64,000 nt of DNA from Cyclospora cayetanensis. Its lineage: Eukaryota > Apicomplexa > Conoidasida > Eucoccidiorida > Eimeriidae. The notes under the pieces are model-generated. The model had not been told where the DNA came from. It did not search any database and was given only the letters and a program-made list of their open reading frames with translations. Numbering within the stretch: position 1 is the stretch's first letter; every line of letters starts with the position of its first letter. The stretch covers positions 1 through 64,000 of the forward strand of contig NW_020312568.1 in assembly GCF_002999335.1 (NCBI RefSeq). The letters run 5' to 3'. Position numbers and translations under genes: made by a program. Below are positions 6,429 to 64,000 of the stretch, piece by piece.

Positions 6429-7540
6429 CTTGCTGTCGAGTTACCAAGCACCCGAGGCTGCCGTCTTCCTTGCGTTCGCTGAGCCCTTTCAGCTACTTCG
6501 TCGCACTTATAGCGATCTCGTATGCCCCCGGTTTACGACGAACTCCCGAAGTCGCCTCAGACTACGGCGACGAGTTCGCAGAACCGTGTGGACTGTCACC
6601 GCCGTCCCCCTCACTGCCGCTCGCGCGCTGGCTCCCTGCGGCTGAGGGCAGACGGCCCCACAGGGCAGATCAGAATGCTAAGAGACGCACAATGGCGATC
6701 GAAACACAGAATTCGCCGAAAAGCTGTGCAACTGAAGCACTCAGAAGATCAACAGACCACAGCGGTGCGGGGCCGTGGCAGCGGCGCCAGCAGCAGCAGC
6801 GGCTGCCGGAAGAGAAGGGGCAAAGAGTGCGAATACAGCAGCGCGATTCGAGGAACGCTGCAGTTCGGCCCAAAAAAAACTTATTGCAAAGAAACGGACA
6901 AGAAGCACAAAACGAAGCAAGGGGCTCCATGCCTCCCGATGCCGCAGGGCTTGTGGGGATGACACTCTCTCCCTGCAGCGGCAGCCTTGGTGGCTTCATG
7001 AGGGGGCCCCTTGCTTCTGCGATGGCTGATCTCCGGAGGCGTGTCGATATCCAAAAGCGCCTCCTTCTATTAGCGCGACGAAGAAAGGGAAAAAATTGAC
7101 ACAACAGGATGGCTGTGCATATGATCAGTGCTATCAGCCTCCAAAAATCCGATCTCCCCCTTCGGCGTAAGGGGCCCCCGATCCCCGGGATTGCAGCAGG
7201 AACGCGGCAAGAGGCCCTTGTAGAGCTGAGGAGGGGCCCCCCGGTTTGTAGGCCTTCCGTCGGTGGTGGCTATTTAAGGCCTGTTTTACTCGCCTGATTT
7301 CGAAATGTCACACGAAGAGATGTGCAATACCAGCGTCGAGAAGCCTGCATCAACATCAAAAGTTTTGAGCTCCAGCAGCCGATGCTCAAAACTCGTCCCT
7401 CCGCGCTCATGAGATCTTCGCCCTTTGCCCGTAATGTTGGCTTTCAGTTGGCGATCTGGGATTTTCGGGGTGGTGTAGAGGCTTCAGACTATCAATGAGT
7501 TTCTGTCTCGCAGCGTGTGCTTGGTCCTACCCCAGAGGCA
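6429..7540. promoter_or_regulatory. Shared upstream region of NOP58 (-) and FAB1 (+)
   Basis: This 1.1-kb interval separates two divergent genes and should hold both promoters and 5' UTRs. Several overlapping GC-driven open frames cross 6430-7100 on both strands, but none has family resemblance and they contradict one another. I treat them as non-coding. GGGGCCCC-type palindromes occur near 7000 and 7170-7240. A pyrimidine-rich stretch ending in CAG at 7513 could be the acceptor of a 5' UTR or short first exon of FAB1. No TATA box is claimed. Confidence 0.5.
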
Positions 7541-10500
7541 ATGGCGCTGTGGCTCCGCGACTCGGAAGCTAGCGAATGTTACCGCTGTGGCGTGTCCTTC
7601 TCAGCCCTGATCCGCCGACACCACTGCAGACAATGCGGTCTAATCTTTTGCTGGCGCTGCTGCTCCCTATGCAGGGAGTCGAGGGGCCCTCATGCGGAAG
7701 GCGCTCTGAAGCTCTGTCTCGCGTGTCTTTTTCAGAAGAAGCGACAGATAAGGCTGTTGACCCCCTTGTGTCAGCAGCAACAAGATCTGGACGCAATGAC
7801 GGAATGGATGCAACACGCATGGGAATCTTCCACCGGGGGCCCCATACATGACTCGGGCTGTCTTGACACCCCTAACCCCATGGTTCCCCTGCCTCCTCCA
7901 GCTGATGCTGGTGAGACGAGCCGTTGCAGTCACACGAACTCGCAGGAGAGGCTTTCAGGGGCTTCGAGGGAGGCTTGCCCCAACGGCCTGCATGCGATGC
8001 GTCTGCTGAGAGAAAGTGTTTCTGCACACTGCATGCTGGAAGGCATCCCCGCAGCCGCCGTGACAGTACTGCTGCACCTTGTCGTTCGCGCTATCTCCGC
8101 CGTGCAGCTACCCCCCTCTGCTGCTCGCTCCCTTGGAGATGCCGTTTACATTTGCTGCACCAGGGGTGAAGACATCCGACAGTCGCACACGCTCTCTGGT
8201 CTAGCAGTCCCCTTGATGCTGCAGCACAAGCAGCAGCAGCAGCTGCTGCCCATGCGAAAAGCTCGGCTCCTGCTGCTGGCTGGGAATTTAGACATGCAGC
8301 GCAAATGGGGCTTTAAAGACTTCCCGGGGGCCAGTGTTCCGGTGCTCCAAGGGGGCCCCCTTGGGGGCCCTGGGGGGCCCCCTTCCGATGAGGGGTTTGC
8401 TCGGCTCGAAGTCGAGAAGAGACGGCGAAGCCTCGCATTACAGGTGCTGCAGCGACAGTTGGCCTTGCTGCAGCCCGACGTTCTGCTGCTTTCCGGAGGT
8501 GTTTCTCAGTCGCTGTCAATCTACTTGGCTAGTCTTCGGGTAGTCGTAATACCGGGTGTCTCCGTTGCCAACTTGGTGAGGGCGAGCAGGGCCATAGGGG
8601 CCCCCCTATGGGCGTCTCTTGAAGTTGCAACGACCTCTTTGCTGAAAAACGAGAAAGCCTTGGGCTGGTGCTCCGTAGAGTGGGGGCCCCCCGCCCCTGG
8701 CGCGTCTGCACACCTCATTCTCTCCGACTGCCCCCCCTTCCGCCTCTGCACGATCTGTCTTGTCCTCCCGCCATCGGCAGACGCTGCGCGGGCTGCTGCG
8801 AAGGCGTCTGTAGCTCTGGCAGCAGAGCCGCTCACAGCAGTAGCCGCTGCAGCCGCAGCAGGGGCTGCCGCGCAAGAGCGAGCAGCGCAGAGGTACAAAA
8901 GGGTTCTTTGGAGGGCCCTTTGGACTGCTTTTGGCCTGCAGCAGCAACTCAAATTCGTTGCTGCATGCTGCTATCCAGGGAATCACCGTCTCTGTCCGTC
9001 ATGGGTTCAGCAGGCAGAAGAGATGCTGCTGCTGCTGCGATCGTCTGCAGCAGAGTATCCGCATGGGTGCTTACAGGGTACGTGGAGGGGAGGCTCTGCG
9101 GAAGGGGCACCGCTGAAGGACGGGAAACAAGCGTGCGACGACGATACAGACACAGCAATCAAGCAGCTGCAAAGGCCCAATAGTGTGTTCTGCCGTGCAA
9201 TTGCTGGCGATAACCGCCTAGAGAACATTGCAGCAGTGCTAAAAAAGGAGTTTCGGGGGCAGACGCTAGTGCAGTGGCTGCGGTCTTGCGGTTCCTCGTT
9301 GGGGTCAAGAAGCCCCATGGACCTGGTCCGTCGGCTGCTGCAGTGTATGTACACCGAGACACACCCGCGGCAGAGCTCGAAGGAGCCTTCAAACGCGCCA
9401 GCCGTAGCAGCAGCAGCAGCGGGAAATCACGGCAATGTCGCTGGTTCAACGCAGCTACAGTTCCTAATGCTGGTGGATGCTGCAGATTCTCCAAAGGGCA
9501 GTGATGGACCGCCAAGAGTTTCCCAGGAGGACCTCTGCTTCCCAGATCACCTCCGCGTCACCCCTCCCGGCAGGCTCTGCTGCAGTGCAGAGGCCCCCCA
9601 GCAATATGAGGATGCGAATTCTGCTGCCTTCGGCGCAGACGGTGCGGAACCTGGAGATGCCGATTCAACTTGGAGTCGCCTCCTGGAGGAGGCCTTTCTC
9701 CTGGAGGCGCAAAGGCCCTCCTACGAAATCAGCTGGAGCTGCCGGTTACAGCATTGCTCCTCCGGATATGCGGGGGCCCCTAGTCCCCCATGTGTGCTGT
9801 CTTTCAACCCCTTTGGCGCGACGCTAGGCGAAGTCCTATGCAGCTGGACGCGCTTTATTCTGCAGCAGCCTGGTGCGCGTCGCTGTCCAGCCGGAGATGC
9901 TAGATGCAAGCGGCCGCTCTCCGAGCACACGCTCGCTTTTTCGCGCGATACTAACCGCGTTCTCATCACCTTCACTGTCAGTGTTGCTCTGCAGATCCTC
10001 AGTGCTGAGCCAGAGGCTTCGTCGTGCCCCCAGATAGCCGACTGCCGATTCACGGCAGTCCCTACTTTTAAGTCCTCGAATTTGACTGCTGCTGCGTCGC
10101 CGAACGTGTAGGCGGCTTCCTGCCGCGGAACGTAGGGTCTGTATACAGAGGGCTTGAGTCGAGCTTCGCTCTCTCCTTGCTAATGCATGCTGCGGCTGCT
10201 TCGCAGGAAGGACTCCCCGCGCACCCTGGGGGGCCCTCTCATGTGTCCAGTCCGATCCTGCGGTGTAGCAGGATTGACGGATCCCCTAGTCTGTCTTCGG
10301 GGCTTCCTGATGCAGCAGGAGCATCAGCTAGAGCAGCAGCACCAAGCAATCCGGTCAGTCCGCATGCGCCTCGGGCTGCCGCAGCGTCTAGCGAGGCAAG
10401 TTCTTCTCCAGCATCAAAAGATCTCGACGCAGCGACAACAGCTTCAGGGGTGCACAAGGGAGCATGCACAGGTGGGTCTGCCCAGTGTGCAACTTGGTGG

Positions 10501-22800: not shown

Positions 22801-25800
22801 CGAGCTTTCGCCTGAAGTGCCTCCCCGTGAGGCCTGGAAACACTTGCTGGCACGGACGCCGCTTGAGGTGTCTGTACAGTGTAACTTTGTGGCCCTGAAA
22901 GACGGGAAGGAACCTCAGAGGCTTTCTCTTAGGTAAGCCCTTGGTGGCTTCACTCATATATGCATACTGTTCAGTTCGGAGGCGTCTTTTTCCACAGCCG
23001 GATCAGGGCCGCAACGTTTGAGACTTTGAATGCGAGATGCATGCACCTCGCAGGGGACTTTTAGAGGCGTGGCTGGAGGCGAGGCTGAAGGCTGTGCGCG
23101 CGCGCACTCAACGGGAAGAGGAGTTGCTGCTGGAGGAGCAGCACCTATTAGAGGGCCTGACAAAGGCCGCAAGCTGCAGCAATGAGATCATCAAGCTGCT
23201 GCAAGACAGCGCGGATGCGGCTGAGGCAACTCAAAAGCTTACAGGTATCGTCAGTACTGAGGGCTTCCATACTCAAGGAAGGGGGGAGTTGTACTCCGCA
23301 CTGCTCAAGAGCCGGGTGTATACATGTGCATGTATTTACATGTGTATTCCTAGCCTGGCAACAATGCGGGTGGCCCCCGACTGTGTGTATCTACCCGGAA
23401 GCATTTAGCGTTGCTATCTCTACAAGCCTCCGAACAGTTGCCAGCATGCTTCTACCTGTTGTGCGCGCGTGACCCAGGTGTAGGCGTAACAGATGTGGTG
23501 CCTCGCACTCTGTGCCTGTGTGTTGCGAGTGGCTGTAATCCCGCAGAGCGTCCGTTTGCGTTCACGGAACGCCAAGCTCAAGCATTGCTGCGCATGCGTC
23601 TCTCCAGTTTGCTGCGGTTACAGCAGCAACAGCAACAACAGAAGCTCGAAGAGACGCGCCAGAAGGCCGTAAAGCTTCGGCACCTCCTTTCGGATGATAG
23701 GGAGCTGTATGGAGTTATCAAGGAGGAGCTTCTTGAGGTGGCCACGAAGTATGGAGTACCAAGAAAGACGCGATTCCTCCGAGGGGGCCCCCCGGGGAGT
23801 TCGCAGGCCATCGATGCTGATGCCATCCTTAATGGGGGGAGAGACGAGAGTGCAGAGACACCCAAGGATACAAAGAGGTATACTTCGCCTAAATAAAGCA
23901 CCGCGTGCGTCTGGAGGGGGACACAGTGTCATGCACTTATGGATGCTGTTGTTCAAAGAATGACATGTCGGCGTCTGCATAGGGAGGCCTCTCTACGCTT
24001 AGGGGGCCTCCAGTGGTCCTGCACATTCGTGCTCCTGCGGAGAGCACGGCTCCCCATATTTTTCGAGACAGGATTTGCATGCGACTTCATGTCTTCGTGC
24101 TTGAATTGTCGCTTATCCGGATAAAGGCCAGCACTCCGCTGACGGTGCAACGTGACTCGTGCCTCGGAATGTACCTGGTGATGCTCTGCTGGACCTACGC
24201 ATGGAGACTCCGCGTGACAACACACTGCATGCGTCTGCATGAGCGTGGGGAAAACCGCTACTTATTGCCTGTTTGTGCTGCTGTATTGCGTTCTGATGAT
24301 GTGTGTGTCTTCCTGAACAGCTACCTGCTACTCGTCACTGAGGGCGGCCTGTACAAGAGAATCCCTGAGGCTGCGCTTAGCCTCCAACGCAGAGGCTCGA
24401 CGGGCCAGCGCTGTCAGAGTGCGGGGGGAGTACGTGCAGCTGCAGGCACCAAGTGGACAGTTGAGGCTTCACAGTCGCTAGACACTACCAGCCGGAGCAG
24501 CAGCAAGATGAGCGCCGTTGTAGCAGCAACGGCGTGTCGAGACAGCGACTGGCTTATGCTCATCTGGAGAGACGGGCGGTGCCTGTCTCTAAGGGGCCAG
24601 CAGCTGCAACGTCATGGTCTAAAGGCCTCTGGGTCGCCCCTTGCTGCTGCAGTCTACAGCTCGCGCCGTCGCGTTACGGGCAAGGCAGCAGCGGCAGATG
24701 GTACAGGGGAGGCAGGAGATGTGGCAGGAGAGGGGCTGTGCTGCGTGGTGCAAGTGAACAGCGGCGAGACAGACGGCCGGCTGGTAGTCGCTACGCAGAA
24801 GGGCCTAGTGAAAGCTGTACCTCTGCGCCTGCTACTGCCCTCTGGAACGGCGAGGAAGCAGCGCCTCAGACGACTGCTGGCCCTCCGACGTGGAGATCAG
24901 GTTGCAGGCTGTGTAACTATATCGGAGGGTGGGCAGCAGAAGGGGGCAGCAGAGAACCAGAAAGAGACAGAGGCGGCAGCAGCGGAAGCGCAAAAAGGCT
25001 GCTCCATTGTAATCGGTAGGTTGAAGCACTGGTGAGGTTTTCTTGTTGCATCCCGTATTCAGGCAGGGGCACCATTGAATCTTGCTCGCTGGTCACACCC
25101 CAGTATCTCCTCTAAACGCGCATGGAGGTAAGGACCTTATTTTACCGGATCGCGGCATACCAGGTGCCTCCGCCTTCCACACGGTTCCCTTTCTTCTTAG
25201 GAACCGCCCACGGCTGCGCCTTGAGGTTTGACGGACAGGCTCTGAGGGACGCAACGCCACTCTCCCATGGCATCAAGGGCATCACACTCAGGTAAGCCCC
25301 CGTAACCCTTTCACGTAAAGCGCTGCATGCATGTGGGGCCCTGGAAGGAAGGAAAATGGCTCAGAGGGTGCTTTGATAGGGTGCCGGGGAGACTTAGTGT
25401 GCGGGAAAGGACAGAGGGAGCGAACTGCTCGACGGACGATACCCCTAGAGCGCTGAGGAGGCAACTGCTCCCTCGCCAAAGGAGGGCAAATGTGTCTTTC
25501 GTGAGGCGTTTTGTGGGGCCGGCGCAGGAAGGGAGACAGAGTAGTGGCGGTAACAGCGGTGCCTTCTGAAGCCGAACCCGCGAAAGGCCATCTGCTTCTC
25601 GTCACAGAAAGGGGACGCGGTAAGGCAGCAAAACGTACAGCCGAATCTCCGCCTCAGCCCATCCCCTGCCTGCCCTTGTCTTGCTCTCCTTTTCTGTGCA
25701 CTCCCTACGCCTCAGGGCCTTTTTCGTTGCCTCTATCACTATCCGCTTGCGCATCATGCTCTATGGATCTTTTTTCTGAAATGTTTTTCGCTGCCTAGCA

Positions 25801-26512
25801 GCTCCCTACCCCAGCGGCTTCCCGCCTCGAAAAGCCCTTGCCCCGTAATAGGCGGCAGCGTGAAGGCGGGAGGCGAGCTCAGCAGCGCACCGTTCTTCGG
25901 TTGCCTTTGCTCCGTTTGCACTCAGGCAAGCTTCTTAGCCTCAAGCATCTCAAGCTTCAGAGACGGGGAGGCACTGGCAGCTCTATAATCCGGCTGCAAA
26001 GCCCGAAGGGGCCCCCTTGTGAGGGAGCCTCTGGAAAAGAATCGTCAGAGGGCCTTAAGGACGAGGCTGCAAACGGCCCCACAGAGCAGCCAGCTGCCCT
26101 TCTCCTTGGGGAATCTAAGGAGAAGGGGTTCGCGCTGAAGAAGCGCAAACTCGCTCACGACGAGACGCGCGAAAGAGACAGCCTATGCGCTTTGCGGTGG
26201 GTTGGGCAATCGCAGCGCTCTCCCCACCAGGAGGTTGCCATCTTGAGCCGAGGCGGTTTCCTCGCGCGGCTAGAGGTGGCTTCTGTCCCGTTACACAGCA
26301 ACAAGCGCTCGAGAGGTGCAACCCTCCTGAAGCTGAAGGAGGGGCAGCGGCAGGCAGCTGACGCTGCTAGTGCAGCTGTGCTGCTTTACGAGCAGCCCCC
26401 CCGCAGGGGGGAAAGTGACGATGCCAAAAGAAAAGTGCAAACCGAGGAAGGCACGACAATGCCTTCGCCCGCTGCAAGGGCGGATGTTGGTACCCTATCT
26501 GAGAACTCTTGA
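19880..26512 (+). CDS. gyrA: DNA gyrase subunit A, apicoplast-targeted
   Basis: GyrA is the breakage-reunion subunit of type II topoisomerase gyrase, here presumably supercoiling apicoplast DNA. The start ATG opens a hydrophobic signal peptide ([16 protein letters not shown]) followed by a Ser/Ala-rich leader, as expected for bipartite apicoplast targeting. GyrA then begins at [20 protein letters not shown]. Catalytic Tyr is in AAAMRYTE (codon 21257-21259). Tower, coiled-coil and C-terminal propeller domains follow. Exons join in phase: 19880-20332, 20836-20948, 21166-21285, 21420-21489, 21745-21881, 22025-22289, 22523-22583, 22758-22932, 23054-23244, 23547-23877, 24321-25015, 25201-25291, 25528-25619, 25926-26512. 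The total is 3381 nt, 1126 aa, longer than the bacterial protein because of the leader and low-complexity inserts. Oddities are Lys at the position equivalent to E. coli Ser83 and a degenerate GyrA box. It converges on the transhydrogenase-like gene. Confidence 0.97.
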
Positions 26513-27076: not shown

Positions 27077-29263
27077 TTAGTCCTCGAAGAATTTGCTTCC
27101 GAGATCTGCGAAAGAAAAGGGCCCTGCTTGAAGCAGCGAGTCTGACCGCGATGCCGCGTTTGACGTAACTTGGGAGACGGTGCGCTCTCCCCGGAAGATT
27201 CCCCAGTGCTGCGGAGGAAGAACCGCCCCTCCCTCCACCAGCACGAGGCGCCTGAGCACAGGATCCTCGAGAGACATCCCGCCCTCATGACGCGTCGTCT
27301 CGAGCTGCTGCAGGAGGCTGCAGACCGCTTCGGATAGAACCCGCGTTGCCTGACGGGGCATCGCGTACTCGAGAGCACTGCCGTTCAGAATAGTGACTCC
27401 ACGAGGAGGCCCCTCTCCAGCGGGGGGGGCCCCCTGGGGGCCCCCCTGCACCGACCCGAACCATCGGGTAGCGGCCTCTGGGTGCCCCCCCAGCAGATCG
27501 ACGATCACAGCTCCCGCCTTCATCCCGCGCATCCACTCTTGCGGCAGCAGTTTCGGAGGGGGATCCCCCGCGGCGCTGTCAGGGCTGCAGATCACAATGT
27601 CGCTCTGCTCGGTGAAGCGTCTCAAGCGCTCCCGCAGCTCCTGAAACTCCTCCAAGGCTCCCCACGAAGGCACTCCGCACAGAATCGCCAGGAAAGTTGC
27701 CCCCAGCGACTCGACGAGCGGCTTCACAGAGAGGCTGGGATCGACCACAAACACCTTTGCCCCCGCCCGGTAGGCAGCCGCGGCTGCATGCAAAGCCGCA
27801 GTGCCCCCCCCCAGCACGAGCACCAAGGCGGGATCTATCCGGCCCGCTGCCGTCGTTAGTCCCTTGACGAGCCGCGGCAGCGCGTACAGCGCCTCGATGA
27901 CTGCCCTGTATCCCCGGAGCGCCTCCAAACCCGGACTGGTGGCGATCCCCCTCGCTTGGATCGCGGGAGAAGAGACTGCCAACGTGACAACGAGCCAGTT
28001 CAGCTCGGCAAGGAGAGACAGTAGGGCGGAGCACCGGCCTGCGGGATGGCAGCACAGGAGGAGGCGGCTTTTCGCCCCCCTTCTCGCGCTGCCTGCTGTT
28101 CCCTGAGGATTTCCCCCGCCGGGTGCTCCCTCCCGCTGCATGGCTGCGGAGTTTTCCGGCAGAGCCGTTGACGAGCTCGACCGCTCCGAGAAGGGCAGGA
28201 AGCACTCCAACGGGGGGGTCGAAGGGTGAATCACGACGTCTGCCACCGCGAGGATCTCCTCCGCAGTGCCCAGCTGTGCGCCGAACACCACATACTCCTC
28301 GTCGGCGTAGGGGCCCTCTGACTGCCCTGCGCTTTCCAGCAACACCGCGAACCCCATCTGCCGCAGCCGCTTCACACCCGGAGGGTCCAGAGGTACAACA
28401 ACCCCACCCCCAAGGCGCTCGCGCAACACCCCGACCGTCTTCTTGGGAGCTGGCCACGCACGGCTCTCCGTGTCTGCGCATGCAAACTCCTCTTCGATCC
28501 TGAGGGGCGGCCAGCTCCGAAGTTCGCCGGATTTTCCCACTCCCAAATGCCGAAGCGCGTTGTTCAGGCTCGAGAGAGACTTCTTTGCTTCCCCCGGCAC
28601 AACCGACACCTGCGGATTGAGAAAAACGGGGTTGTTGCGCCGGCTGCCAGGGGGCCCCCGGGGGCCCCTTGAGCGCATCAACGCGAAGACGCGGGGAGAC
28701 CTCCACACCTCGATGATGGCGCCATCCATCGGCCTCATTCTCTCTAGAAGCAGCGGATTCACGATGTCGTTGGCGCCCACAAGCAGGGCGAGGTCGTAAA
28801 GAAAGATGGTAGCATTTGCCTCTTCTCCCGTTATGATAAAGTGGGAGGGAACCTCTTGCAAGTAAAGGGATATGTGGCCTGTTAAGCGACCCGCAATAGG
28901 ACTCACGGCGAAGGCGACTCTTGCGCCGCAAAGCAGCAGCTTGGCGATTTCGGTCAGCTCTGCAAAGCAACGGCTCAGAGCGAAGCCATACCCCGGCACA
29001 ATAAGGATGCGATGCGCCTTGGAAAGGGCTGCAGCCAACGCACTTATGTCCGAGATATGCCAGCAGCCCTCGAATCCATGCGAATCGCGACGGTGGTGCT
29101 GCTGCTTCGTGGGAAGCTGCCGCTGCTTCTCATGGCTGCCGCGATGGCGCTGGTGGAAACGTTCTTGCTGCTGCTGCTGCGGTAACGGCTTGGAATGAGT
29201 GGCGCTGGAGGAGGTAGGAGCCATGCGGGGGGAGAACGGGGAAGAGGAGCCTAAGAGCGGCAT
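27077..29263 (-). CDS. Transhydrogenase-like protein: domain III + domain I, no membrane domain II
   Basis: NAD(P) transhydrogenases couple hydride transfer between NADH and NADP+ to proton movement through membrane domain II. This uninterrupted 728-codon frame first carries domain III, the NADP(H) half: VPGYGFALSR at about residue 90, IAGRLTGH, VGANDIVNP, NPVFLNPQ and GEAKKS. Domain I, the NAD(H) half, follows (GVLRERL, LEALRGYRAV, VLVLGGGTAAL, VVDPS, MRGMKAGAVIVDL). This III-then-I order is known from single-chain Eimeria and Entamoeba enzymes. No hydrophobic spans occur in or around it, so domain II is missing. Motifs are degraded: the family KRS plus GYAG loop reads MRS then RGPPGSRR, GxGxxG reads GGGTAA, and the RxxRAQ region is not conserved. 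The N-terminus is Gln/His-rich. Start is the ATG at 29263; 29224 is an alternative. It may be a catalytically dead paralogue. The gene is intronless, unlike most neighbours. Confidence 0.88.
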   Translation of the reverse strand: MPLLGSSSPFSPRMAPTSSSATHSKPLPQQQQQERFHQRHRGSHEKQRQLPTKQQHHRRDSHGFEGCWHISDISALAAALSKAHRILIVPGYGFALSRCFAELTEIAKLLLCGARVAFAVSPIAGRLTGHISLYLQEVPSHFIITGEEANATIFLYDLALLVGANDIVNPLLLERMRPMDGAIIEVWRSPRVFALMRSRGPRGPPGSRRNNPVFLNPQVSVVPGEAKKSLSSLNNALRHLGVGKSGELRSWPPLRIEEEFACADTESRAWPAPKKTVGVLRERLGGGVVVPLDPPGVKRLRQMGFAVLLESAGQSEGPYADEEYVVFGAQLGTAEEILAVADVVIHPSTPPLECFLPFSERSSSSTALPENSAAMQREGAPGGGNPQGTAGSARRGAKSRLLLCCHPAGRCSALLSLLAELNWLVVTLAVSSPAIQARGIATSPGLEALRGYRAVIEALYALPRLVKGLTTAAGRIDPALVLVLGGGTAALHAAAAAYRAGAKVFVVDPSLSVKPLVESLGATFLAILCGVPSWGALEEFQELRERLRRFTEQSDIVICSPDSAAGDPPPKLLPQEWMRGMKAGAVIVDLLGGHPEAATRWFGSVQGGPQGAPPAGEGPPRGVTILNGSALEYAMPRQATRVLSEAVCSLLQQLETTRHEGGMSLEDPVLRRLVLVEGGAVLPPQHWGIFRGERTVSQVTSNAASRSDSLLQAGPFSFADLGSKFFED

Positions 29264-47550: not shown

Positions 47551-49010
47551 AAGAGTGGTGTGGAGCGGAGACGCAGGCATCGTCAGAACACAAAGAAATA
47601 CTAGAAAGAATAAGAAATTCATGGAGGAAAAACGCATTTTCCGCCCCTTGAGGTTTATCATAGGCTAGTTTGTCCATGGATACGGGGAAAACCGCTAGTA
47701 CAAGGCGCCTGAAGGTGCGTTGGCACTCTCTAATGTGTAGGTACGTGTGGGAGTACAGCAAAGGGAGCAATCCTTAAAAGTATTCCTTTGCTCCAAGAAT
47801 CTCAAAGGAGTGATTACATTTGCAAAGGCTTCACTTCTTTGAATGACTTGAGATGGCTCACAAACAGTGTTTTGCCCAAGAAGAAGTTCATGACTTGGTT
47901 CAAGAATCTAGCTTGAGTATTGTTTCTCGCGGAAAACCGTGATTGCATTAGAGTTGGAGTAGGGAATGTCCATTGTGTTGCCATCTTGAAGCTGAAGAGC
48001 TGGATTCGTGTGGAAGGAAGCGAGAAACAACAATCTGTAGCAATCATGGCGGGAACCCATGCCAAAGATTGTGGCCCGCATACATTATCCCTGCGATATC
48101 AATGCAGCAGTCATATTCTCGTACTTTTCGACATGTGAATACCCGCCATAAACAAATTTTCAGTGGATAAATGCACCATGGGGATTCCCGGTGGTGTATC
48201 TAAATGTTTGCCAGTAACATGACCGTGACATTACCAGGTCACATGCCAGCTGTTCCCTTTTGCGGTGATTCCCTTGACCCAAAGAGCACTGTACTCTCTT
48301 ACTTCACAGATTTCTGGATTGCCTTCCTTCGGCACTATCCTTGTACAAAAGAGCCGTTTGAACTGCGGAGAATGTTTGTTGGAGCAATTATTGCACTAGA
48401 GATGGGAGAATGTTAGACACTATGGAGACTCCTTCAATCTGCATTTGCTTCCGGTGTGCTCTTTGATTTTATAATGTGCATGTGGCCACTGTTCTGGTGA
48501 GATCATTGTGTAGATTTCGTTATGGCCCTGTGCCTTGTACTTTGTTCTATGACAATGGCAAAGTTAGCCGGCCGGCAGAGTGGAAGACAATATAATGCGT
48601 ACTGCGCAATCAATAGTGTGCAGAAGCAACAAAGGGTTAAAGCGATGGCTGAAGCAAAGTGATGACAACCTTTTGCATTCATATTTAATCATCTTCCTTT
48701 CGGGTGTATCTGCTTTTTCAGCTGGTATTGCTTCAGTAGTTCTTTTCAAGGTAACGCTTCTATAAACTAAATTAACCTATTATGGTATAGTGCTTTGATA
48801 GCCTTCTTGGTTTCATATTGCTCCGTCACTATGACTGCCGACCCGCAGAAACGTTGCTACGTGGCGCCGAGACGCCAGAATATTGAGGAAAGAGCTGAGC
48901 TCGAAGGGCAAACGTAGGGTTTGTCTTAATATCCTCGTTTCTAGGGACAAACAATAAGCAAAATTACTAAAAGTAATGAATACAATGCATCATTCGCCCG
49001 AAACAGAAAA

Positions 49011-49081
49011 GGGCGCGCACGGAATTGAACCATGAACCTGCCGATCTGCAGTCGGCCGCTCTACCATTGAGCTACACACCC
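49011..49081 (-). tRNA. tRNA-Cys (anticodon GCA)
   Basis: The minus strand folds into a complete 71-nt cloverleaf. The acceptor stem is GGGTGTG with CGCGCCC (two G-U pairs), the D stem GCTC/GAGC, the anticodon stem GCCGA/TCGGC with loop CTGCAGA (anticodon GCA), and the T stem CATGG/CCGTG with loop TTCAATT. No intron is present. A TTTT run follows immediately on the minus strand and would serve as a Pol III terminator. The internal A box (TAGCTCAATGGT) and B box (GGTTCAATTCC) are recognisable. No 3' CCA is encoded, as expected for a nuclear eukaryotic tRNA. Confidence 0.96.
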
Positions 49082-51823: not shown

Positions 51824-54800
51824 TTACCTCCTTGCGTTGCTGGGGTGCAGCAGAGGGTCGCTCCACAGAGCTACCGGCTGCAGCGTGGATCTGTAGAAGT
51901 GCCCAGGGAAAATGGCTTCCCGCATGTTCGTTGGGCGTCTTCCCCGTCGCAGCACGCTCAGTGGATTCTCCAGCAAATGGTCGATTGCATCTCGGAGTTT
52001 CGAATGCGGTTGCCGCCGCTGCAGAGAGGGTGTCTGAGCCGGAGTGTCTGCGGCTTTAAGCCCAGTGCCTTTTGCTGCTTCTCCGTCAGCTTCTCGTGTG
52101 GTTCCCCGCGAAGAGGAAGGCGCGTCATCCGCAGCGGCTGCAGCGCCTGCCGCAGTGGCTGCAGCGACTGTGGGCGCTGCTTCGAGCTCTGGTTCGGGTT
52201 CGAAGAGGACGCTTGCCGTAAGCGTTGAGCCGGCAACGAGTGTGTCGGTTTCCTCCTCTCTCGCAGTGGATGCGCCCTCCGCACTCGCATCTGCGCTGCT
52301 GCTGCTGGGGAAGGGAGCGGCGTTGCTGCTGGTGACTTTGCTCGAGGCGTCCTTCTTGCGAGCAGACAGAGGCGACTTCTTCTTGGCGCCTGCGTCGGCG
52401 CCGCTGCCCGCCCTCTCCCCGCTGCCTGCGGCGGCTTCTTGAGTCGCTGCCTTCTTCCCGCGCTTGCCGTCTGGCACTGCAGCCTCCTTTGTTGCAAGCG
52501 GCTTGGGAGCGTTCGGCGGAATATCCGCAGAAACACCCCCCCCACTCGCCCCCCCCCCCTCAGCACCGGCAACAAAGCCGCCGCCAGGAACTGTCTCCCC
52601 ACGGCAAACCCCCACGGAGACACCGAGCAAGGCGCACTCCAGCTCCAACATGGGGTCGAAGAAATTTTCTGCCGAGAGCCGCATCGTTCCCCAGTGCACG
52701 CCGACGCCGACTTCCGCTCGGATATCCTTGAAGAGCATGAGAGCCTCCTGCGGATTGACGTGCTGGTAGCGCAAATCCTCGTTCGGCTCGTAGGCGCCGA
52801 TCGCCAAAGCCGCCAGATGGAACGGACCCAAGAGGCGACCTACCTTGCGAAACTCGTCGAAATCTTTCCTGAAATAACTCGTGTCGCCGCCGTAAAAAAA
52901 GTTGTGACGGGGCCCTTTGATGGCGAATCCCCCCCAAAGGGAGGTGTTGTGATCAGCCTTGGCTGGGCTTCGCCCGCTCCAGTGAACGTTGCCAACGTAG
53001 GTGATGGTGAAGCGATCTACAGCCGCCTCGCTCGCGCGCGCCTCGCCGAGCGACCCCTCAGCGCCTGCGGGGGGAGCTCCCGCGAGGCGACTGGCGCGAA
53101 ACTGCTGCATTCCCCCCCCCGCCCCCCCCGCTCCTGCGTTCATGGGCAGCCTCCCCCCCCCGAGAGAGCGATCTTGAGCCGCGCTCCGAGCATCCACGCC
53201 GCTCCCGAGAGGCGGAGCTCCGCCCCCCGCCCCCCCGTTAGCCGGAGCTGCTCCTCGCACCGAGCGATGCATGGGCGGCATCTTCTTCTTGCTCGGCGTT
53301 GAAGGCATCCCCTTGTCTCCCCCCCTGTCATGACCAGAGAACCTCCCGCTGCCACTCCCCTCCGAAGCATGCAACGCGCCGCTAGAGGGCCCCTGCCACC
53401 CGCTCTCGTCGCTAGAGGGAGCGCCGCCACCATTCGGCGAATGCGCCTGCGAGAGAGCGTCGCCGGCAGCCGCCGGCCTAACCCACACCCCGTCGCTGCA
53501 CGCATACTGCCCGTTCCGCGGCATGCACGAGAGCGTTCTGCTTTCTCCCCACGTGAACTCGCACACGCGTTGCGGCGAGCACCCGTGTTTCACGAGGAAC
53601 CACGCAACCCCTTCGGGAACATACCACATCAAATGCTTAAAACGCTCCTTGTGCGTCCTACACAAGTGCTTAATGTCGCGCTCCATGATGTGGTCTTGGT
53701 GATTGTGAGACAAGATGACCAAATGCAGATCGGATGGCAACTCGCTAATGCGCGCAGGGGCAGGTCGAAGCCGCTCCCCCAGACTGCCACACAGCTTCGA
53801 ATTCACGAAATTCAAGAAACGCTTCGCCAAATCACTCATTGCACCCACAATATCCTCCCCCAAAACAGGATCTATCAACACGTTCAAACCGTCGATCGTC
53901 ACAAGCCCCGACGCATGCCCCAGCCAGGTGTATCGCACCCCCGGTTCTGCACCCAAGGAAGGCGCCCCTGGACCGCCATAAATATCCGTAAATTTTGGTT
54001 TCAGAACTGGCAAATGCGTTTTTAGAACCCTAGGAGGTGGCTTTCGCGCGACGCGATGATGCTTGATCCACTTGGGGAGCCACTTCAGCTGATCCGCCAT
54101 GAGCCAGAGCTGCTCTCGCTCCTGCTTCGTGAACACCGACCACGGATACAGGTAGTGCCCGTCCACTTTGACGGCTCGCGTGAGCTTGTGCGGATGCACT
54201 GCGTCTGCCAGCTGCTTGTATGCTCTTGAATACGCCTCCGACATAGACAAGTGCCGGGGTGTAACGCCAGCCCGCGCCTCCTCCGCTAGAGAAGAAAACA
54301 CGGGAGAAAGCGCGGGAAAAAAAGGGGAGTTTCCGCTCTTCTCGATCGCGCTCTGCAACAACTCCTTTAGCCCAAAACCCCCTTGCTGCAGCAGCAGCGA
54401 GCGCAACGCTCGAGGCAAACGAATGGTCTGCTGCTTCACGTTCTCAACAACTGACCAGCCTTCCTCCAATAACACTTCACGCAGCTCCCGCCCTGACGAC
54501 GCTGCTTCAGCGTCCTCTGAACTGAACTCCGCGGAGACTGTGGAAATCCGCTGGCGCCTCTCTTCAGAGAATTCGCGCGAATCTGCTCGCCTTCGAGCCG
54601 CTGCTGCTCTTGCCTTCAAAAGAGAATCCAATGCCTTCCACGACAGACCCGCAACAGCCCCCCCAGGAGCTGCCGCTGCACGCCGCCTCTGCTGCTGCTC
54701 GAGTTGCAACAACAGCAAGACGCGCTTAATAGCGTCTTCCTCACGAGCTGCAAATTGCCGCCACGCAACGCCATCCGATTCCACAGAAAAGGCGTCCACT

Positions 54801-54838
54801 TGAGGCTCCGGCAGAGGTCTTAGCAGCAGTCCCTCCTC

Positions 54839-54887
<49 letters not shown>

Positions 54888-55228
54888 GCCAGTCTCCCCG
54901 CAGCAGAAGACCAATAGGGAAGCCATGCCCCCACTGCTGCTGTGGCTGTGGCTTTTGCTGCTGCTGCTGTTGCGCGGATGGCGTCTACCGACAGCTCCTG
55001 CTTCAGAGTCTCTCCTCTCCACAAGAGCAGCAGTAACAAAAGCAATCCTCCTGCCACTGCACTGGCGATGGCGCGCTTATTCACATTCGAGAGCACCCCT
55101 CTTGTGCCCCCTGCGGTTGCCCCTTCAGCTGCTGCTGCTGCCGCTGCTGCTGCTGCTGCTGCTGTGTTTTCGGTTACGGCGGGAGCGGGAGCGGGAGCGT
55201 CGCTTTCTGGTGCTCTAAAGCCTTCCAT
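51824..55228 (-). CDS. NAPE-PLD-like metallo-beta-lactamase-fold phospholipase, membrane-anchored
   Basis: NAPE-PLD hydrolyses N-acyl phosphatidylethanolamine at a di-zinc centre. This intronless 1134-codon frame begins (ATG 55228) with an Ala-rich leader and one hydrophobic span ([18 protein letters not shown], about residues 52-69), then a poly-Gln tract. The fold starts near WLGHASGLVTIDG. Zinc ligands are visible in SHNHQDH (about residues 506-512), the His of NVHWSGR (about 748), GGDTSY (about 781) and VHWGT (about 845). AIGAYEP and YQHVNPQEA also match the family. Two features depart from it: a low-complexity insert of roughly 180 residues between TWGESRTL and FTITYVGN, and an Ala/Ser/Lys-rich C-terminal tail of over 250 residues. 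Vertebrate NAPE-PLD has about 390 residues. All catalytic motifs look intact, so activity is plausible, but the substrate is inferred. Confidence 0.88.
54838..54888 (-). repeat. CTG/CAG tract coding poly-Gln
   Basis: About seventeen consecutive CTG/CTC triplets on the plus strand, read as CAG on the minus strand, encode a poly-Gln run in the N-terminal region of the NAPE-PLD-like protein. Similar but shorter tracts occur at about 55130-55165 (read as Ala) and in several other genes. Confidence 0.95.
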
Positions 55229-58200
55229 TTTCCGCGTGGGGAACGAAAAACGGCGAGGCTTGTAAAGCCTCAGCGGCAGCTTCCAGATCCCACAGGGGCA
55301 GGAGGGGTTGCTGCACGTCGGTGAGGCTGCCACTGCTCGCCTGAAGAGGCGTCGCAGAGGGAGCGATGGCAGACAGAGTTGAGAAGACGCCGAGTGCCCC
55401 CCTCGACGTCCAATTAGACACGTTCTGTGCGGCTTCTGCTCCGGCTAATCAGAGCCTGCCGTCGCGAGACAAACGGGAGGATGCACCATTCGCTAGGGCG
55501 GAAGTATCGCTGCCTGTGTCTTAAGGCATAGGAAAAATCCATTGAAAGAAATCCACAAAGCAGAGAAAATCCCGCCTCCGACGGGCAAGGGAGCTGGTGG
55601 TAGGGTGCGAGCAGGGCCTTACTGCACCCGCGTGTTTCCCACCGTCTTTAAGAAGGGGGATCGCTCTGCGTTCAGAGAGCACCGCCTTCTAAGTATTCCT
55701 CATTCTTAATGAAGAAGGCATTTGCCATGAAAGGAAATGATGCCACGCCTTCAAAGGTGCCGTGCCAGAGACGCCGCGCGGCTGCGGCTTCCTTTCAGCA
55801 GTCCCCGTTCCGATCGGTCCGGGAGATCGAAGGGGGTGGTGCATGGCACCTTGCTGGGGGAGCAAATTACTGTGATGGGCGAAGTTTAGAGAATTTAGAT
55901 CGATAAGACGCCGGGAAATTCTTTTTGAGGCTTGCTTGCGCCGCAACTTTAAGAGCAACACCCGCAGCAGAAGGCGGCAGGCAAGTCCGCCTAAGCCGCC
56001 GCTACAGAGAACGCATGCTGGAAAGCTGGCTTAAGTGGTGCCTCCAGGAGATGCTGCTGCTTCTTCCTACTTCTGATTATGCTTGTTGTGACAGCCTGCC
56101 TCTGGGGAGTGCGAGGCGGCGCGGCTACTTAGAACGCAGAGCAGTCATGGGCCAGGCGGTTACTGGGGCACCTGTATGTACACTCGAGGGTGTTGCATCC
56201 AGTGTTGAAGCCGCGCTGCTTTGTGCCTTCGTCCTCCGGACGGCTCCCTGATGGATGTACCCGTATCCACAGGCTTGCACAAGGGTTTAAGGGGAGAGGG
56301 TGGGGGATGTTCTGGGGGGAAACGCGCGCCTTGTCGCCAGCGTGCACCTTGAAAAGCCTGCACTTGCCACAAAATCGCCGCTATTCTCGTGTGGCGCACC
56401 GGCATACACAGACGGCTCATTGGCTCTGGGCCTGCCCTCATCAAAACAGCTCCCGTGGGCTGTATGCGCAGGCTCAGGTCCTACTGACGCTGCAGCCTGC
56501 GGGATTGGAGGAGGAACACCTTTCCTCCTGGCGCGTTGCAAAGGAAGGCGCTTCAACATCACGGCAGGCCAGTGTGCGGCCCTTACGGACGCCTTCCCAG
56601 CTTGCTTGGAAAGCACGCTCGGCGAAACAAAAGCTGATCAACCAGTGGCGAGCCTGGCAAAGTGAGCGCTCTAATGTAGTCTTCACCCACGCAGATACGC
56701 GTGGCCTTTTTGCAATGGGCAGCCGTCTATGCGTAGCTGCACTGCCTACGACGAAAACGAGGTGCTTCTTGCTCTGTGAAGCTGTAAACGCGCATACCCG
56801 AAACTAGTGAGCACAAAAAGTGCAGTTTCGCTTCAAAAGTCTATGTAGGGGAGATACGTACCGCCAGTCGTACTACAAAGTTTTCAGAAAACTTTAGATT
56901 GATTTTCAAAGAGCTACGACCTTATTCCCAAGCCCCAACCACTCTAAACTCCGGACAGGAGGAGAGGGGGCATGGAGCGGGGAGAGCTACACCAAGGTGC
57001 TTTCCACTGTATTGAATCCATGCATGAAAGCATTAGAAAGAAGTGACAAGTTGATTTTGTATTTGTATGCCTACTAGCGCACTGCAGAGACCTGTTGCAT
57101 CGAGCGAAGAAGAGTTGGCATGGAATAATAAGTCTTGCAAGGCGTTAAACCAATAAGAAAGGCCAATTCTTTGATGCCCAGTGTATAATGTTTCCTATTT
57201 CAGAAAACAAAGCGCAGCTCAACGATCAGGCAGCCCATTCTTACTTGTCTTTTTGCGCGGCAGGGATGGGAAACCAGTTGCAGCAGGCAGGTAGAGGGAG
57301 GGATGTACCGTAGCGAGTGAGGCTACGGGTACACCCTTTCTTGTACACTAGTTATATTTACACCCTGTTGAGTCTAAGCACCCGTCTCTGAAATTGCACT
57401 TTTGATCTGACAACCCTTATACGAAGAGAGGCTGCAATAGCTGAGCGAAGCTGCAATATCTCTCTGTCTCGCTCTTTGTCTCTGTCTGTCTGTCTCGCTC
57501 TGTCTCTGTCTGTCTCTCTCGCTCTGTCTCTCTCTCGAGCAACCTGCCTTCCTGCAGCCAGGATTTCGGCGCTGCATTTTTTAGAGTTACCAGCAGTGCA
57601 GCGCGCTGCACAGCTCGGCGTATGGCTAGCTACGCTGCGAATGCCAATCCAGCGGAGTGGCGCAGGGGACCAATAAGGAGCGCTCGCAGGCCTAAGACTC
57701 CATGCCTGACAAGTTCGCGCCGTCTGACTAGGTAGCTAGCTAGTCAGCTAGCTAGCCCGCGGTGCTTGTTGAGGAGCGCTAGAAGGCGTTGCACATGCCC
57801 AGCGCGTCCGCAACGGAGCATTCAGGCCAGATAAGGCTTGTGCAACTGGCTCTCTTTCTCTATATATATATCTATATACACATCTATATATACATCTATA
57901 TATACATCTATATACACATCTATGTACATACATCTATATATATATATATATCGGCCTCCCCATGGTACACATAAAACCATAGTGCACAGCAGCCACAGCT
58001 ACAGGGCAACTTTTCTGCGCGGTCGAACTCACGAGCTCGTCACGTGGGAAGCCTGCAGTTCTCCCTCAGTGTCGCTACAAGCGTGATGCTAATCAACACA
58101 CCCCAGACAGCCGCTCTGCTCATGAGCCCTAGTAATATCCGGCAGCAGAAGAGGAGAACAAGTGAACTGCTGAAACAGGGACCCTTAAAAAATGCCGCAT

Positions 58201-58491: not shown

Positions 58492-64000
<5,509 letters not shown>

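Follow-up and report, generated by a model that had tools for sequence, protein, structure and literature searches.

A single intronless frame on the minus strand of the window (the whole stretch of DNA analyzed, 64 kb in length) probably encodes a protein that binds nucleotides and has taken on a new function rather than a dead relic. In our main reading, to which we assign a probability of about 0.55, this protein is a soluble, refunctionalized pseudo-transhydrogenase that descends from a retrocopied group I enzyme, would still bind NADP(H) and would no longer perform normal hydride transfer. Judged by sequence, Eimeria-type coccidia have a second, soluble transhydrogenase paralogue beside the normal membrane enzyme, and it is conserved in the sequences of at least seven species.

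The frame (27077..29263, minus strand) starts with an ATG at position 29263, ends with a TAA at 27077 and comprises 728 amino acids plus stop. When the surrounding 3 kb were shuffled (300 base shuffles), the longest stop-free run had a mean of 188 and a maximum of 412 codons. Pfam searches matched the C-terminal part of PNTB (domain III) to residues 70-235 (E 5e-29), AlaDh_PNT_C to residues 454-682 (E 5e-27) and AlaDh_PNT_N to residues 278-348 (E 3e-6), the latter with 28.1 bits and thus slightly below the curated cut-off of 30.4. The original prediction of one open frame joining domain III and then domain I, i.e., the beta-alpha order, was therefore borne out. Both domains (PNTB C-terminal and AlaDh_PNT) lie on one chain, as expected of a transhydrogenase, the best sequence matches of the protein are solved transhydrogenases (6qti, E 6e-40), and a tblastn search with a canonical domain III-domain I stretch against the window yielded a match in a single piece, from 29011 to 27227. 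The alanine dehydrogenase family, in contrast, lacks domain III, and the similarity of the protein to it is weaker than to PntA. Two AlaDh_PNT-type genes of the same assembly, L020 (contig C7) and L021 (contig C246), are alanine dehydrogenase-like and gave no domain III match; contig C363 contained one short match.

The protein begins with a Ser/Gln/Arg-rich, disordered extension (residues 1-64, 29072..29263; pLDDT ~32), which replaces the membrane helices of the beta-subunit and contains no hydrophobic segment. It is followed by domain III with its NADP(H)-binding fold (residues 70-238, 28550..29056), a linker (residues 239-274, 28442..28549) and domain I with two Rossmann subdomains (residues 275-686, 27206..28441). 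At the C-terminus, the motif FRGERTVS (27173..27196) takes the place of the alpha-subunit membrane helices. All these features lie on the minus strand, and structure modeling predicts the folds of both domain III and domain I for the window copy.

Convergent with the frame, DNA gyrase subunit A-like pieces were found on the plus strand at 23411-26512, with the gyrase A C-terminal repeat scoring above and DNA_topoisoIV below the cut-off; presumably, this gene encodes the apicoplast gyrase. Further features of the window are an open stretch of 870 codons that includes a FYVE zinc finger (7499-10108, plus strand, E 8e-13), a tRNA-Cys (GCA) on which Rfam and ARAGORN agree (49010-49081, minus strand), an open stretch of 1205 codons whose metallo-beta-lactamase superfamily domains have an RNase Z-like layout (51830-55444, minus strand; Lactamase_B_2, E 5e-23), and the start of a PI3/PI4-kinase domain (60694-62139, minus strand, E 1e-6).

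Protein searches, in which about 8000 candidates sharing most words were scored and 120 matches listed, revealed six relatives of the same build (P0002-P0007) with 41-54% identity to the window protein among the matches listed. They include proteins from E. necatrix, E. stiedai, E. media, E. flavescens and E. acervulina, the sixth being P0002, and domain III precedes domain I in all of them. After these six, the score fell in one step from 451 to 156 bits, and ordinary enzymes followed. Fragments such as P0088, P0092, and P0094 (437-485 residues) are likewise devoid of a membrane Pfam domain. The database name of the E. necatrix protein is 'Protein NNT-1, related', and no description of a transhydrogenase without domain II in Eimeria was found in the titles and abstract openings of the open-licence literature. 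Relative to the literature searched, membrane-free transhydrogenase domains that have lost both active-site loops and are conserved among Eimeria-type species would thus be new. The immunodominant 'transhydrogenase' of three chicken Eimeria is given as 92.9-94.5% alike between the species (PMC5471023) and was therefore taken for the canonical enzyme. The transhydrogenase mentioned in RNA-seq work (PMC10818985) might be either copy.

The state of the nucleotide and catalytic sites was read from an alignment of 28 sequences, among them the seven soluble members and 11 canonical rows. In domain III, the GxGxA nucleotide loop, GYGFA in the window copy (28979..28993), is retained in all seven members. 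The original prediction had described the KRS/GYAG loop as damaged, which holds in part: the segment reads MRS followed by RGPRGPPGSRRN (28634..28678), and none of the seven has the Lys of KRS or the Gly-Tyr pair of the lid formed by loop E, but the Arg (7/7) and the Ser (6/7) of KRS are still in place. Residues 201-208 of the window copy, in the lid region, are predicted with pLDDT values below 50. The Arg of HPVAGR is retained in five members and the full GANDxVNP in three. As loop D is altered in four of the seven and the HPVAGR Arg is lost in two, some of the species may have a protein that binds NADP weakly.

For domain I, the prediction had listed the P-loop sequence GGGTAA (27794..27811) as a lesion. 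The sequence is indeed present, but it still conforms to GxGxxA, a known Rossmann variant, and is private to the window species: the first two glycines are conserved in all seven members and the third, an Ala in the window copy, in the other six, which read GxGxxG. The substitution should thus be tolerable. The ribose Asp is also retained throughout (7/7). Domain III itself carries a Gly-X-Gly-X-X-Ala/Val motif, as stated in PMC5026163. The reported loss of the Arg/Gln cluster, on the other hand, was confirmed: Arg127 and Gln132, both present in 11 of 11 canonical rows, occur in none of the soluble proteins, and Asp135 occurs in three (R. rubrum numbering from PDB titles, assigned to the motif according to residue spacing). 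In the former hydride-transfer loop (residues 432-443, 27935..27970), Arg127 is lost, Gln132 has become Arg438, and a new Arg438-Gly439 pair is found in all seven aligned members. None of them has the mobile loop, which reads GGYAREM in the coccidian enzyme, or its GGYA core at the corresponding site (27641..27664). Altogether, Arg127 and Gln132 as well as the lid of loop E and the mobile loop are lost in 7/7. According to PDB titles, R127, Q132, D135, and S138 were targeted by depositors through mutant structures. Mutation of Arg127, Gln132, and Asp135 slows hydride transfer. Since domain I no longer has its residues on the nicotinamide side and the lid is lost, the usual hydride transfer appears unlikely, while the retained motifs on the ADP-ribose side and the KRS Arg point to binding of NADP(H), perhaps also of NAD(H).

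The same retained P-loop and ribose Asp would fit a working enzyme as well, either a soluble uncoupled transhydrogenase or another NAD(P)-dependent oxidoreductase, whose active site was rebuilt with Arg438, His492, Trp534, and Pro561 as replacements. Several of the family's 28 new invariant residues are located at the old active site, and among the 11 canonical rows the mobile loop has diverged in one, the full-length enzyme of Cryptosporidium felis (P0035), so that loss of this loop alone is no proof of inactivity. Nevertheless, we regard such an enzyme as unlikely, since every member is without Arg127 and Gln132, without the mobile loop and without the loop E Gly-Tyr, and since precisely R127, Q132, D135, and S138 were singled out by the mutant structures.

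A full-length transhydrogenase was found on contig C185 of the same 43.2 Mb assembly, where PNTB and AlaDh_PNT_C matched in pieces. A gene model built by spliced alignment with the Toxoplasma protein has 1018 residues, 19 introns (51-65 bases each) and intact motifs (KRSMAAGYA, PRVTRAQKLD, GAGVAGLQA, and GGYAREM); the E. mitis protein also matched a piece lying farther upstream, which suggests at least one extra exon and at least 20 in all. Within the stretch homologous to the frame, the C185 gene contains seven introns and the window copy none. Since the window copy is intronless while the parent-type gene is intron-rich, a retrocopy origin is suggested by the missing introns together with the tree described below, although intron loss without retrocopying may also account for such a copy. 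A spliced transcript of a group I beta-alpha enzyme would have been copied back into the genome, and both membrane ends of the copy would then have been lost, leaving the soluble domain III-domain I chain. In beta-alpha enzymes domain III adjoins domain I, so that shedding both ends would yield exactly the chain seen in the window.

The existence of a true enzyme in the same genome also allows for a regulatory partner, which would pair with the C185 enzyme via domain I and modulate it, for example in refractile bodies. The segment KGLTTAAGRI (residues 467-476, 27836..27865), in which all ten residues are invariant in the seven members, forms a strand-turn-strand in the structure model (strands 469-471 and 474-476) and is taken here to be the swapped dimer hairpin of domain I. 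A swapped hairpin dimerizes known domain I, as a structural review describes (PMC5742237), and PMC7054674 places the Eimeria transhydrogenase in the refractile body. Against these points stands the divergence of the soluble domain I, which shares only ~24-31% identity with that of C185, and we therefore hold such a partnership to be decidedly unlikely.

Phylogenetic placement was based on a main tree of 37 rows, limited to the region spanning domains III and I. In this tree, the seven soluble proteins formed one clade (support 100/100), and this clade together with the enzymes of Toxoplasma (P0032), Besnoitia (P0031), E. mitis (P0200), and C185, which were assigned to group I by their closeness to the Eimeria enzyme, was split from the other 26 rows at 100/97. 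A full-length tree of 36 rows was concordant (99/94), and a placement outside coccidia plus Cryptosporidium was rejected (p 0.018). In the best tree, the soluble clade lies outside the canonical coccidia (78/88), with p values of 0.059 for a placement with Eimeria group I and 0.29 for one with Sarcocystidae; owing to the long stem branch, more than one place among the canonical coccidia is conceivable. These trees, which were built without any Sarcocystid group II sequence, indicate that the soluble clade belongs with coccidian group I. According to a 2023 survey (PMC7614955), the ancestor is inferred to have had a second beta-alpha nth lineage and Eimeriidae have a single nth gene, of group I. 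The soluble family might accordingly be imagined as a descendant of group II nth, retained by Sarcocystidae and reportedly lost in Eimeriidae, but this is very unlikely, since the trees favor group I and a grouping with the rows that we call 'group-II-like', a label coined in this analysis, was rejected (p 0.009), Sarcocystid group II itself being absent from the trees (none was among the 120 matches listed of the 8000 candidates of the protein search). The same survey states that its sequences were screened for membrane topology, a step that would remove the soluble family from its count.

The absence of domain II from the frame and its flanks, as originally claimed, rests on tblastn with a positive control and on hydropathy. 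Domain II pieces of three coccidian enzymes, searched against the whole 64 kb window, yielded either no match or noise (E no better than 0.11), and the same queries matched contig C185. In a simple hydropathy analysis, each of the seven soluble proteins showed no or one hydrophobic segment and each of two canonical enzymes showed five, in agreement with the soluble protein that had been proposed; a membrane domain II with a proton path was detected neither in the frame nor in the window. The PF12769 profile gave no match in the whole assembly but also missed the canonical C185 exons, and its absence is weak evidence because the canonical E. mitis protein P0200 lacks PF12769, too. A possible splice acceptor, seen by eye immediately upstream of the ATG, might hint at an incomplete gene model with exons for membrane helices up- and downstream of the frame. 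We consider this highly improbable given the domain II searches of the window with their working control and the predicted proteins of six relatives, which are likewise without membrane helices.

Several observations argue that the family is constrained. From 50 (domain III) and 46 (domain I) columns invariant in the canonical enzymes, 21 and 20, respectively, are retained in all seven soluble proteins, and 12 in each domain are lost in all of them. At 28 of the 151 columns invariant in the soluble family, the residue is found in none of 12 canonical rows. The C-terminal pattern [FLI][RK]Gx[RK]T[LIVF]S occurs in 7/7 soluble and 0/6 canonical proteins tested, the pattern having been drawn from the same seven. 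With these new invariant residues and the common C-terminal pattern, the family looks rebuilt rather than decaying. Under neutral substitution at 0.2 per site, about eight stops were expected in the 621-codon core, and none of 200 simulated cores stayed free of stops; together with the conservation in seven species' sequences, this supports the earlier view that selection maintains the frame. Conversely, the term 'relic' had to be given up, as the frame is neither broken nor unconstrained in these sequences of different species and has its own 28 invariant residues. Despite rapid evolution and lost motifs, a pseudogene is hardly credible, because the seven long open chains keep 41-84% pairwise core identity and new invariant residues where neutrality would predict stops.

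The closest known system is the apicomplexan group I beta-alpha enzyme, which shares with the soluble family a single chain in which domain I follows domain III, the folds, the nearest position in the tree and the GxGxA, KRS Arg, GxGxxG, ribose Asp, and TAAG hairpin motifs. The soluble family differs from it in having a new C-terminal motif, in lacking domain II and in having lost Arg127 and Gln132 along with the mobile loop and the lid of loop E, and the window copy differs from the C185 gene by having no introns. The recombinant Rhodospirillum rubrum complexes of the type (domain I)2-domain III (1hzz, 1u28, 2fr8 R127A, 1nm5 Q132N) are laboratory pieces, whereas the window protein is a natural fused chain that lacks the residues mutated there. 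Another chain with domains I and III and without a membrane Pfam domain is P0086, a predicted protein of 568 amino acids whose contig, 1.86 Mb long, is presumed to be bacterial. In contrast to the window protein, it has the opposite order (I, then III) and retains PRTSRAQ and GGYA of domain I. Going by its sequence, P0086 is a possible natural soluble transhydrogenase. Among the best 80 of 188 relatives in prokaryote genomes, most match its domain I part only; L093, considered as a similar fusion, turned out to be two adjacent genes.

For the soluble pseudo-transhydrogenase that we favor, a sensing, buffering or regulatory task is proposed. The structural review gives the NADP(H) affinity of isolated domain III as below nM, partly via the loop E lid, and the values of the intact E. 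coli enzyme, 16 and 0.87 uM, as far weaker (PMC5742237). Without domain II, a soluble protein would hold NADP(H) stuck unless the lid were gone; loss of the lid would permit free exchange without a membrane domain forcing release, and such exchange would suit a cofactor sensor, a buffer or a regulatory subunit. Likely surfaces for contacts and regulation would be the hairpin, with its invariant residues, and the RTxS motif gained at the C-terminus. The fullest version, a retrocopy-derived, freely exchanging NADP(H) sensor that pairs with the true enzyme and controls it via the hairpin and the RTxS tail, is speculative and quite improbable. With the soluble family, the published inventory, which lists one nth for Eimeriidae and argues about coccidian evolution from this count, gains a second gene that lacks the membrane part. 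The family also offers a natural experiment with transhydrogenase nucleotide domains freed from the membrane, bearing on whether it is the lid of loop E that keeps NADP(H) locked in domain III when this domain is isolated, a role that the structural review leaves open (PMC5742237).
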